Below are positions 2,609 to 24,548 of a stretch of 64,000 nucleotides of DNA, in pieces. The notes under the pieces were generated by a model. It was given only the letters and a program-made list of their open reading frames with translations. It searched no databases and was not told the DNA's origin. Source of the DNA: Bacteroidetes bacterium 43-16 (GTDB taxonomy: Bacteria; Bacteroidota; Bacteroidia; Chitinophagales; Chitinophagaceae); contig MKTB01000017.1 in assembly GCA_001897525.1 (NCBI GenBank), positions 310,001 through 374,000 on the forward strand, read 5' to 3'. Position numbers and translations under genes: made by a program. The stretch's first letter is position 1. Every line of letters begins with the position of its first letter.

Positions 2609-3421
2609 ATGCAAACAATCACCTTAAACAACGGATTGCAAGTCCCCCAATTAGGTTTGGGAGTGTGGCAGTCCGGCAATGGAGAACTGCTGCAGGAAGC
2701 CCTTGCCGTAGCTTTTGAAACCGGGTACCGTCATATAGATACCGCTGCTTTTTACCATAATGAAGCCGGGGTGGGGCAGGCTATGAAACACTCCGGGATA
2801 GACCGTGCTCAGTTTTTTATAACCACCAAAGTATGGAATGAAGACCAGGGCTATGCACAGACCCTCAAAGCCTTTGAGCGCAGCCTGGCCCTGCTGGACA
2901 GCCCTTACATTGATTTATACTTAATTCACTGGCCCGTAAAAGGTAAAGAACGCGATACCTGGAAAGCCCTTGAATTCCTGTACCGGGAGGGTAAAGTGAA
3001 AGCAATAGGAGTAAGCAATTTCCTGCAACATCACCTGGAAGCCCTCCTGCCTTATTGTGAGATCAAACCCATGATCAACCAACTGGAACATCATCCCTAC
3101 CTGGTGCAAAAAGACTTGCAGGACTTCTGCCGCCGACAAGAGATCCGCTTCGAAGCCTGGAGCCCATTAATGCAGGGCGGCGTATTTACCATTCCCCTGT
3201 TACAAGAATTATCGTTGAAATACAACAAAACCATAGCCCAGCTCGTATTAAGATGGAATATTCAAAACAGCATCATCAGTATACCTAAAAGCATCCACCC
3301 CGAACGCATTAAAGAAAACTTCGACATCTGGAACTTTGAAATAGAAGCAGCAGACCTGCAGTTGATCGACCATTTAGATAAAGCACAAAGAGTAGGGCCA
3401 GACCCTGATGTGTTTGGATAG
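2609..3421 (+). CDS. Aldo/keto reductase
   Basis: 270 aa; GYRHIDTAAFYHNEAGVGQAM, DLYLIHWP, IGVSNFLQHHLEALL, SIPKSIHPERIKENFDIWNFEI are AKR family signatures. Confidence 0.93.
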   Translation: MQTITLNNGLQVPQLGLGVWQSGNGELLQEALAVAFETGYRHIDTAAFYHNEAGVGQAMKHSGIDRAQFFITTKVWNEDQGYAQTLKAFERSLALLDSPYIDLYLIHWPVKGKERDTWKALEFLYREGKVKAIGVSNFLQHHLEALLPYCEIKPMINQLEHHPYLVQKDLQDFCRRQEIRFEAWSPLMQGGVFTIPLLQELSLKYNKTIAQLVLRWNIQNSIISIPKSIHPERIKENFDIWNFEIEAADLQLIDHLDKAQRVGPDPDVFG

Positions 3422-3546
3422 TGATAGGTGGTGGGGGATGAGTGAGAAGTAAAAAGTGATAGGTGATGAGTGGTGGGTGATGAGTGATGGTTGATGAGTG
3501 GTGAGTGATGGGTGGTGGGTGATGGTGAATTGTTGATTGTTGATGA
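3421..3546. repeat. Degenerate 7-bp tandem array (GTGATRR family), about 15-18 units
   Basis: Read in phase: gtgatag gtggtgg gggatga gtgagaa gtaaaaa gtgatag gtgatga gtggtgg gtgatga gtgatgg ttgatga gtggtga gtgatgg gtggtgg gtgatgg, then decayed units. First unit begins on the last base of the stop codon of the aldo/keto reductase gene. Confidence 0.9.
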
Positions 3547-3571
3547 GCATGACAATAATTTTTCACAGCTC

Positions 3572-3662
3572 CTTCTCACTTCTCACTTCTCACTTCTCAC
3601 TTCTCACTTCTCACTTCTCACTTATCACTTATCACTTATCACTTATCACTTATCACTTATCA
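3572..3662. repeat. Perfect 7-bp tandem array: 7 x CTTCTCA then 6 x CTTATCA
   Basis: Counted directly; ends a few bases from the minus-strand stop codon (3666-3668). Confidence 0.97.
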
Positions 3663-3665
3663 CAA

Positions 3666-4535
3666 TTACACCTTACTGCTCACATACTCATCCACCGTAC
3701 CAAATAAAAACTCCGGATATAGATTCGAGAATTTCTCTTTGATAAAGCCTCCCAATAAAGGCCTCTTGGCCGGTTGCTTGAGGCTGGCGGTGTCAATGGC
3801 GTTTAATTCATAGGCCGCATCCGGGAAATACTTTAAGACACGAAGGGCCAATTCCACCCGGTTCATATAATCCGTACTGCCGATGTGAAATACCCCTGAC
3901 TGATCGTCCGTCAGTAGTACCAGCATGGCCCTGGCAATATCCCAGGCATTAGTGGGAGAAGCATATTGATCTTTGGGCAGGTTCAGCGTTAACTTTTGTC
4001 CCTCCTTACATTGGCTCACGATACGGGCAATAAAGTTTTTCCCTCTGATTTCATCCCCGTACACATTGGTCACCCTTAAGACTAAGCCATTGGCTATTTC
4101 CCTAAGCACCAATTGCTCTGCTTCCAGCTTATGTTTGCCATAAATGCTCAAAGGATTGATCTTGCCATCCTCTTTATAAGGCCCTTCCGTACCATCAAAA
4201 ACATAATCAGTAGAGATATAGACCATGCGGGCATTACAAGCCTGTGCTAATGTCACCAAAGCCTGGGTACTGGCTACCGTTTTCTCATAACTTTCTTCAA
4301 TATGATCTTCACAATAGTCCACATGAGTCAGCGCGCCGCAATGCACGATCACGTCCGGCCCGAAAGCCTTTACATCAAAATTATCCGGGTGTGCCGGCTC
4401 TAAAGTATTATAGAATACCGTATCTGCAGTGCCGAAAGAAAGGTGTGTACCCACAACCTCGTGACCCTGCTCTGTAAAATGTTTCAGACAATTTCCTCCT
4501 ACCAGTCCGGAGGCTCCGGCGATGAATATTTTCAT
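3666..4535 (-). CDS. SDR-family NAD(P)-dependent oxidoreductase, RmlD/dTDP-4-dehydrorhamnose reductase-like
   Basis: MKIFIAGASGLVGGNCLKHF Rossmann motif; YISTDYVFDGTEGPYKEDGKINPLSIYGKHKLEAEQ. Confidence 0.85.
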   Translation of the reverse strand: MKIFIAGASGLVGGNCLKHFTEQGHEVVGTHLSFGTADTVFYNTLEPAHPDNFDVKAFGPDVIVHCGALTHVDYCEDHIEESYEKTVASTQALVTLAQACNARMVYISTDYVFDGTEGPYKEDGKINPLSIYGKHKLEAEQLVLREIANGLVLRVTNVYGDEIRGKNFIARIVSQCKEGQKLTLNLPKDQYASPTNAWDIARAMLVLLTDDQSGVFHIGSTDYMNRVELALRVLKYFPDAAYELNAIDTASLKQPAKRPLLGGFIKEKFSNLYPEFLFGTVDEYVSSKV

Positions 4536-5323: not shown

Positions 5324-5329
5324 AATATT

Positions 5330-5364
5330 AAAAAGGGTAAACTTTATACAAGTTTACCCTTTTT
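5330..5364. terminator. Bidirectional intrinsic terminator
   Basis: AAAAAGGGTAAACTT-tatac-AAGTTTACCCTTTTT, perfect 15-bp stem between convergent genes. Confidence 0.9.
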
Positions 5365-5387
5365 GTTTTCCTATAACCAGGATACTA

Positions 5388-23515: not shown

Positions 23516-23728
23516 ATGGCAGCCAGAAACAAGTTGTCATTCCCAACTGATGATGCAATCACGAAGTCTGTTTACCTGGTATTACGTGAAGGATCAAAAA
23601 AAAGGACCATGCCCATTAGGAACTGGGGCATGATCCTGAATCAATTTTTAACTATTTTTGGCAACAGAATAACGTTGTAAAAACCAAGCTCCCCGGTTAA
23701 AAATTTACACACTTAATGAGATAGTTCA
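23516..23728 (+). mobile_element. IS256-family insertion sequence remnant: transposase C-terminus plus right terminal repeat
   Basis: Unlisted 54-aa frame 23516..23680: MAARNKLSFPTDDAITKSVYLVLREGSKKRTMPIRNWGMILNQFLTIFGNRITL*, the C-terminal signature of IS256-type transposases; followed by ...TTTACACACTTAATGAGATAGTTC, an IR-like end. Confidence 0.75.
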
Positions 23729-23730
23729 TA

Positions 23731-23772
23731 ATTAACCACTCACCATTAACCATTAACAACTAACAATTACCC
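23731..23772. repeat. 7-bp tandem array, 6 units (RTTAACC/GTTAATG family)
   Basis: attaacc actcacc attaacc attaaca actaaca attaccc, ending exactly on the minus-strand stop codon. Confidence 0.85.
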
Positions 23773-24548
23773 TACCAGTCTTTGTCCAGCTTTTTCGGGC
23801 TTGTTTTACCTGCTTCGCCTTTGCGTTCCTGTACTTTTTTCTCGCTTTGCTGCACGGCATTCAACATTTCCGCAGCTCTTTGCTCGGTCATTTTCTGTGC
23901 CTCAGACTGGGACTGCTGTTGCTTCTGCTCTTCTTCTTTTTTCTTTTCTTCCTCGGATTGTTGCTTGTCTTTGTCCTTTTTGTCTTTATCTTTATCGTTC
24001 TTATCCTCCGGTTTTTTATCGTCCTTCTTATCTTCTTTGTTCTCGTCTTTATTGTCTTTTTTGTCTTTATCCTTTTGCTGATCGTCTTTTTTCTGATCCT
24101 GCTTTTTCAGCATCTCCTGGGCATAAGCCAGGTTGTATTTCGATTCCCGGTCAGCAGGATTGCTCTTTAGTGCATTTTTATAAGCATCCACGGCACTCTT
24201 CCAGTTCTTCTCTTCTGAAAAGCTATTTCCGATATTATGATAGGCCTTGGCCCTGAGGTTTTTGTCTGCGGTAAGGGTGAGGGCCTTTTCAAATTGTTTC
24301 CGGGCTGGTTCATACTTTTTGGTTTGCATCAAGGCATTACCACGGTTGTAAAAAGCTACCGGGTCCTGGTTATTTTTGCCTTGTGCTTTTTCATATAACT
24401 TATCCGACTCGGCATATTTATGCTGGTGATAGAGGTCATTCCCTTCATATAGTATCGAGTTTATATTAGCTTGCTTTTTCTGCTCCTGGGCAAAAGAGGC
24501 AATCGACAAAAAACATGAGATAATAACTATAAAATATCTGTAAATCAT
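23772..24548 (-). CDS. TPR protein, BatC-like, with K/D/E/Q-rich C-terminal region
   Basis: TPRs (ESDKLYEKAQGKNNQDPVAFYNRGNALMQTKKYEPARKQFEKAL) then KDKDKKDNKDENKEDKKDDKKPEDKNDKDKDKKDKDKQQ. Confidence 0.85.
   Translation of the reverse strand: MIYRYFIVIISCFLSIASFAQEQKKQANINSILYEGNDLYHQHKYAESDKLYEKAQGKNNQDPVAFYNRGNALMQTKKYEPARKQFEKALTLTADKNLRAKAYHNIGNSFSEEKNWKSAVDAYKNALKSNPADRESKYNLAYAQEMLKKQDQKKDDQQKDKDKKDNKDENKEDKKDDKKPEDKNDKDKDKKDKDKQQSEEEKKKEEEQKQQQSQSEAQKMTEQRAAEMLNAVQQSEKKVQERKGEAGKTSPKKLDKDW

Follow-up and report, generated by a model that had tools for sequence, protein, structure and literature searches.

GTGA-type heptanucleotide arrays behind stop codons in Chitinophagaceae resemble the stop-proximal heptamers of Xanthomonas and Nostoc in place and strand

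Tandem heptamers with the units GGGAATC in Xanthomonas and GGGGA(C/T)T in Nostoc were described by Rehm et al. 2015 as overwhelmingly intergenic and mostly transcribed, with the repeats downstream of genes lying mostly on the coding strand and 0-50 bp from the stop codon or overlapping it, too few repeats in divergent gaps and, in Xanthomonas, about 70 inverted heptamer pairs (PMC4692102). When two species were compared, the majority of these repeats occupied corresponding gaps, flanked by the same genes, while varying in length and sequence (PMC4692102). TAACTGA direct repeats were reported by MacGregor 2015 in Beggiatoaceae, Cyanobacteria and five Bacteroidetes; they mostly lie immediately before start codons, and related heptamers are seldom repeated (PMC4679880). 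Among prokaryotic long simple sequence repeats with units of 5-11 nt, heptamers were the most abundant according to Mrazek et al. 2007, as cited in both of these papers (PMC4679880, PMC4692102).

The GTGA-type arrays analysed here share with the Xanthomonas/Nostoc type the 7-bp unit, the position close to stop codons, the coding strand, the scarcity in divergent gaps and the inverted pairs. In contrast to the quadruplex-forming G-run unit of those groups, the unit here is GTGANNN in genome-specific dialects; no G3 or G4 run occurs in GTGATAA, GTGAGAA, GTGAAGA or GTGAAAG, and GGG arises at the joint only in GTGATGG-like units, so that we file the arrays as a Bacteroidota variant of the stop-proximal heptamers by place and strand, and not as a quadruplex repeat. 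They further differ in carrying stops in all frames, often including the gene's own stop, whereas the GGGAATC and GGGGATT units have no stop in any frame, and in sitting 5' of terminators and, in the genome of our locus, excluding them; Xanthomonas, moreover, has arrays in front of genes, on the non-coding strand. The TAACTGA repeats are likewise intergenic heptamers with all-frame stops in one orientation that are long in some Bacteroidetes, but they are start-proximal and of another sequence, whereas GTGANNN is anchored to stops and thus does not belong to that class. As cited, the survey of long simple sequence repeats matches the GTGA arrays in the dominance of period 7 and the proposed slippage origin, and what is cited of it is without the GTGA family, its orientation or its anchoring to stops; the arrays at our locus are heptanucleotide long simple sequence repeats, with 7-bp tandem units beyond chance. 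An earlier sequence-only reading was not aware of any element like this having been named for Bacteroidota; for heptamers in general this is too broad, given TAACTGA (PMC4679880), and for GTGA heptads no earlier report in Bacteroidota was found in the open-access literature.

The analysed window comprises 64,000 nucleotides (G000:C17:310001-374000) of a Taibaiella-like Chitinophagaceae genome (Bacteroidota; hereafter G000) of 4.73 Mb in 39 contigs. Within it, an aldo/keto reductase gene on the + strand (2609-3421; PF00248, E 1.5e-49) converges with an RmlD/epimerase-family gene on the - strand (3666-4535; PF04321, E 1.2e-56). The TAG stop of the reductase gene (3419-3421, preceded by ...GGA) shares its register with the left array on the + strand (3421-3545), with no gap between them. 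This GTGATRR-type array, the 5' arm for the + transcript, is degenerate yet strictly of period 7 (identity over 3422-3546 of 0.69 at lag 7 and 0.68 at lag 14, compared to 0.23-0.49 at other lags), has zero C on the + strand and is extended by ATTGTTG units to about 3544. A central core, GATGAGCATGACAATAATTTTTCACAGCTCC (3542-3572, no strand), separates it from the right array on the - strand (3572-3663), whose sequence and fold mark it as the complementary arm. Read on the - strand, the stop of the RmlD/epimerase-family gene (3666-3668) is followed by TT (2 nt) and then by 6 x GTGATAA and 7 x GTGAGAA, 13 units that are all perfect (3663 down to 3572); recent slippage amplification of this array, as the sequence-only reading had proposed, is plausible. 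Both arrays were located by that reading as we find them. It had missed that the arms are complementary, that a homologous block of array, core and array is found about 23 kb off (from C17:290002 onwards), and that the window holds a third stop-abutting array. In the homologous block a second copy of the core with 3 mismatches (G000:C17:290107-290137) is flanked by similar inverted arrays. The third array (23727-23771, - strand) directly follows a TPR-domain gene (23772-24509, - strand) and consists on the - strand of the units GGTAATT, GTTAGTT, GTTAATG (twice), GTGAGTG and GTTAATT in this order. A hairpin with a T-run was observed about 90 bp 3' of it (window about 23597-23640).

To place these arrays in a wider frame, 116 GTGA-type blocks were collected from seven Chitinophagaceae genomes, of which 110 entered the count of distances to stops. 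Selection was by repeat pattern, blind to genes, for the blocks of G064, G013, G094, G018 and G059 and for much of G092, and the sets of G000 and G092 include unbiased stretches; genes were called with a home-made hexamer-score caller that gives exact stops and approximate starts. Array starts lay within 14 nt of a stop codon in 72 of the 110 cases, compared to 23.6 ± 3.3 for random placement in the same gaps (maximum 36 in 2000 trials), although this uniform null overstates the anchoring, since stop-to-terminator spacers are short and an array confined to them would be near the stop anyway. Within 20 nt of the stop, GTGA was on the coding strand in 69 arrays and on the opposite strand in 7. 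When only the array nearest the stop was taken, one per gap, 77 of the 91 gaps had it in sense and 14 in antisense; among arrays 8-40 nt behind an intact stop the counts were 17 and 4, and near stops in the unbiased part of G000 they were 11 and 2. In that part, divergent gaps held 1 of 24 arrays while making up 32% of intergenic bp (P 0.001). Enrichment at stops and strand bias relative to the upstream gene, which the sequence-only reading had named as the genome-wide check on its proposal, are thus both present. A replication-strand bias was rejected, as array orientation followed no consistent rule when compared by eye with contig GC skew; one G092 contig holds both orientations.

Period 7 is essentially the sole tandem-repeat class of G000: among arrays of about 3 or more copies in 1.264 Mb, 20 had period 7, 18 had period 14 and one each had periods 8 and 15, with zero arrays at the other periods between 4 and 13 and zero arrays in a dinucleotide-random genome. 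Period 7 was dominant in samples of G092, G026, G059 and G018 as well. Once detected arrays had been removed, no lag-7 excess was left in all 3' flanks, which indicates that the arrays are discrete and led us to reject a general 7-periodicity of 3' flanks. Six consecutive GTGANNN units were present in 27 of 119 family genomes, with 92 lacking any, and in 36 of 150 genomes of the order, and twelve units in 10 of 109 genomes of the phylum; the heaviest load found was that of G026, with 442 six-unit matches in 3.7 Mb. The dialects are specific to genomes (GTGATRR, GTGAAGA, GTGAAAG, GTGAGTG, GTGAAWC). Some carry C on the sense strand (GTGAAAC and GTGAATC in G018, GGATGAC in G026), and a few arrays of G059 have C-rich units in sense, so G-richness is not universal. 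Heptads of other types (GGATGAC, AGCTGAT, AGGTATC) occur, with G026 and G059 among the hosts, and the idea that heptads are always built on a fixed GTGA core was therefore rejected; GTGA is the commonest heptad seen, but it was favoured by the search pattern used. In a 200-kb sample of G059 (L165-L174), heptads of several families (AGCTGAT, GCTTTAG, AGGTATC) were very dense and were accompanied by 12 period-8 arrays. A second heptad flavour, short and TTTTGAA-type, was seen behind stops in G000 (C3:111591-111620, C3:113464-113488, C17:212121-212150), where the two C3 runs occupy the whole gap between the stop and the next start of tandem genes.

In genomes other than G000, 25 array ends had a recognisable intrinsic terminator, which lay 3' of the array at 24 of them and overlapped it at one, and the median start of the terminator was 104-114 nt from the stop with an array compared to 22-45 nt without; the single G000 array end with a terminator also had it 3' of the array. 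The arrays thus very probably lie in the transcribed 3'-UTR, which upholds the location given by the sequence-only reading. In G000, only 1 of 26 array-bearing ends had an intrinsic terminator, compared to 332 of 855 other ends (P 1e-4), and at convergent ends the figures were 0 of 13 with an array and 55% without. In the other genomes, no such deficit was seen (convergent terminator rate 49% with an array, 50% without), and replacement of terminators is therefore not a general rule; the G000 deficit means either that arrays replace terminators or that arrays persist where none is needed. At the window locus, no intrinsic terminator (GC-rich hairpin plus U-run) was found at 3422-3665, where the arms fold and no U-run follows.

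Folded as one hairpin, the two complementary arms of the window pair reached -120.6 kcal/mol, compared to -80.5 for shuffles (z -8.3), while the left arm folded alone gave -10 kcal/mol. Like a bidirectional intrinsic terminator, such as that at window 5329-5365, this would be one hairpin for both convergent transcripts; it differs in having heptad arms of roughly 100 bp, a spacer of tens of nt and no U-run. We then compared each array with up to 250 nt on either side inside its gap, and a complementary partner was found downstream at z < -3 for 38 of 105 arrays (28 below -5) and upstream for 3 of 39 (none below -5). With partners mostly downstream, the order in the transcript is stop, GTGA arm, spacer and TCAC arm. 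The median partner z was -0.9, and the majority of arrays are without a strong partner arm. Inverted pairs at close range, a Xanthomonas-type trait, are thus present among GTGA arrays, including the window pair. Treating the "antisense" arrays as a separate second class was rejected, since several form the 3' arm of an inverted pair. Imperfect palindromes (cgagcgatagcgagtggagacatctc type) adjoin several G000 arrays (C15:237150-237200, C17:473610-473660, C10 near 150-208, C24:50650-50705); these REP-like palindromes could be a REP family.

On balance, we regard the arrays as probably being slippage-grown heptad minisatellites in the spacer between stop and terminator, with the paired arms serving as structural transcript ends. 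Long heptanucleotide arrays would grow by 7-nt slippage in this transcribed spacer, and their placement would be set by constraint, as a 3' spacer can take arrays while coding sequence and promoters cannot. GTGA-type arrays may be tolerated especially well, because stops in every frame of the sense units would make frame slips at the gene end harmless. This reading draws on the dominance of period 7, the anchoring at stops (often within the first unit), the coding strand, the sparse use of divergent gaps, the terminators 3' of arrays, the downstream TCAC arms of about a third of the arrays, the window hairpin, the repeat-free gap in Taibaiella sp. KBW10, the conserved orthologue C-termini, the sites shared with a sister species (both described below) and the terminator deficit of G000; the arrays lacking a strong partner arm, the C-rich units of G059 and the normal terminator rate at array ends of other genomes speak against it. 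At the window locus, both arrays would form one hairpin of roughly 100 bp, a structural 3' end for both convergent transcripts that may act as a road-block, a terminator or an exonuclease shield in place of an intrinsic terminator; for inverted pairs such as this one, the buffer for convergent transcription suggested by the sequence-only reading is possible. The least explained fact is the sense-strand rule. Slippage alone predicts no strand preference, so the 69:7 orientation counts against an account by slippage only, and a filter for stops in any frame leaves unexplained both the sense arrays behind an intact stop (17 versus 4) and the similar rule for the stop-free units of Xanthomonas. 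A transcription-linked mutational bias is our leading guess.

Such a bias could in principle be the whole cause, the arrays being functionless products of transcription-linked slippage behind stops, for example where G-rich RNA forms R-loops with a C-rich template. This would account for the G-richness of the sense strand, the place in the 3'-UTR, the genome-specific dialects, the lack of arrays in most relatives (92 of 119 genomes in the family) and the comparable placement in Xanthomonas and Nostoc, and we hold it to be a tentative alternative, on the unlikely side. It does not directly predict the downstream complementary arm (38/105 compared to 3/39 upstream), the terminator deficit of G000 or the conservation of position in the sister species G004 (Taibaiella sp. 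MAG-390). There, 3 of 21 G000 array genes had an array at the same site, with different units, compared to about 0.06 expected (P about 3e-5), an expectation that takes some 9 array clusters and 3,300 genes as given. At one such locus (G000 C7:18084, G004 C5:178133), both species have arrays of differing dialects, and the stops, TGA and TAA, are one or two codons apart. Array units and lengths vary between species, and the shared sites suggest that a given gene end can retain or regain an array whose units change. At the site orthologous to the window pair, the convergent genes of the genus-mate Taibaiella sp. KBW10 (G003) are 19 bp apart with no repeats, and the 3' flank of the MAG-390 reductase gene shows a decayed period-7 pattern from the stop (0.53 at lag 7, 0.54 at lag 14; 0/20,000 shuffles). 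In MAG-390, the RmlD-like and reductase genes are separated by a 208-aa ORF (L113 2440-3063, also L218) that is absent from the window genome and KBW10.

A stronger functional claim would be that, throughout Bacteroidota, GTGANNN arrays that are anchored to stops on the coding strand and followed by a TCAC arm form a functional bidirectional class of heptad-built 3' ends, able to substitute for intrinsic terminators, whose unit is kept because every frame must contain a stop and is restored by slippage; this we consider unlikely. Rho-dependent insulation, in which the C-rich, nearly G-free opposite strand would be rut-like and end the transcription of a convergent neighbour before antisense RNA runs over the gene, appears more doubtful still. 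It is consistent with nearly all G000 arrays being C-free on one strand and G-free on the other, with the near absence of intrinsic terminators at G000 array ends and with the enrichment of convergent gaps, which in the unbiased part of G000 held 11 of 24 arrays while making up 17.6% of intergenic bp (P 0.001). Tandem gaps, however, host about half of the arrays, and the G018 (GTGAAAC, GTGAATC) and G026 (GGATGAC) dialects with C on the sense strand do not fit.

The sequence-only reading had also put forward a read-through guard, in which arrays would be kept for their stops in three frames behind a gene, where they would halt ribosomes that read past the stop codon or slip out of frame, and its observation that the heptads give stops in all three frames was confirmed: GTGA arrays near stops had them on the sense strand in 65 of 71 cases and on the opposite strand in 11, and 10 of 12 non-GTGA arrays had them in sense. 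The gene's own stop is moreover often an array unit. By register (phase 3), it coincided with the TGA inside a GTGA unit for 27 of the 71 sense arrays (1/7 expected, P 7e-7), and further sense arrays have TA[GTGA...] or a TAA or TAG immediately preceding GTGA. Stop usage at array genes was TGA 27, TAG 25 and TAA 19, compared to about 12/20/68% for TGA/TAG/TAA among all called genes, the commoner TGA and TAG being array-borne. Erosion of gene ends by arrays was rejected as an explanation, since the C-termini of G004 orthologues agree within 3 aa for 20 of 21 array genes, which indicates that the arrays have not shortened them. Against a guard, stop-free heptads occupy the same position in Xanthomonas and Nostoc, which disfavours it as a common cause; Ho and Hurst 2019 detected no selection favouring additional stops in eubacteria (PMC6764699); tens of units far exceed the need; of the roughly 880 G000 gene ends tested, only about 26 bear an array; and in non-GTGA arrays antisense stops are nearly as frequent (7/12). 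A guard role is accordingly improbable, even below Rho-dependent insulation. A mobile or recombination element, with array-core-array as a dispersed unit inserted at gene ends, is very improbable, since, despite the second core copy with inverted arrays 23 kb off, the 31-bp core has two copies only in 1.66 Mb, which does not fit the many dispersed copies of a transposable element or MITE, other arrays have unrelated centres, no transposase was seen and an unsystematic look noticed no target duplications.

Collectively, stop-hugging heptamers on the coding strand occur in Bacteroidota too, which makes them a convergent pattern in three phyla. That an unrelated, mostly non-quadruplex unit has a closely similar placement weakens the quadruplex explanation of this placement. 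Common to all three groups are period 7, the stop-proximal spacer and transcription (where known or inferred), and these shared traits point to a transcription-linked mutational process or a role at the 3' end.
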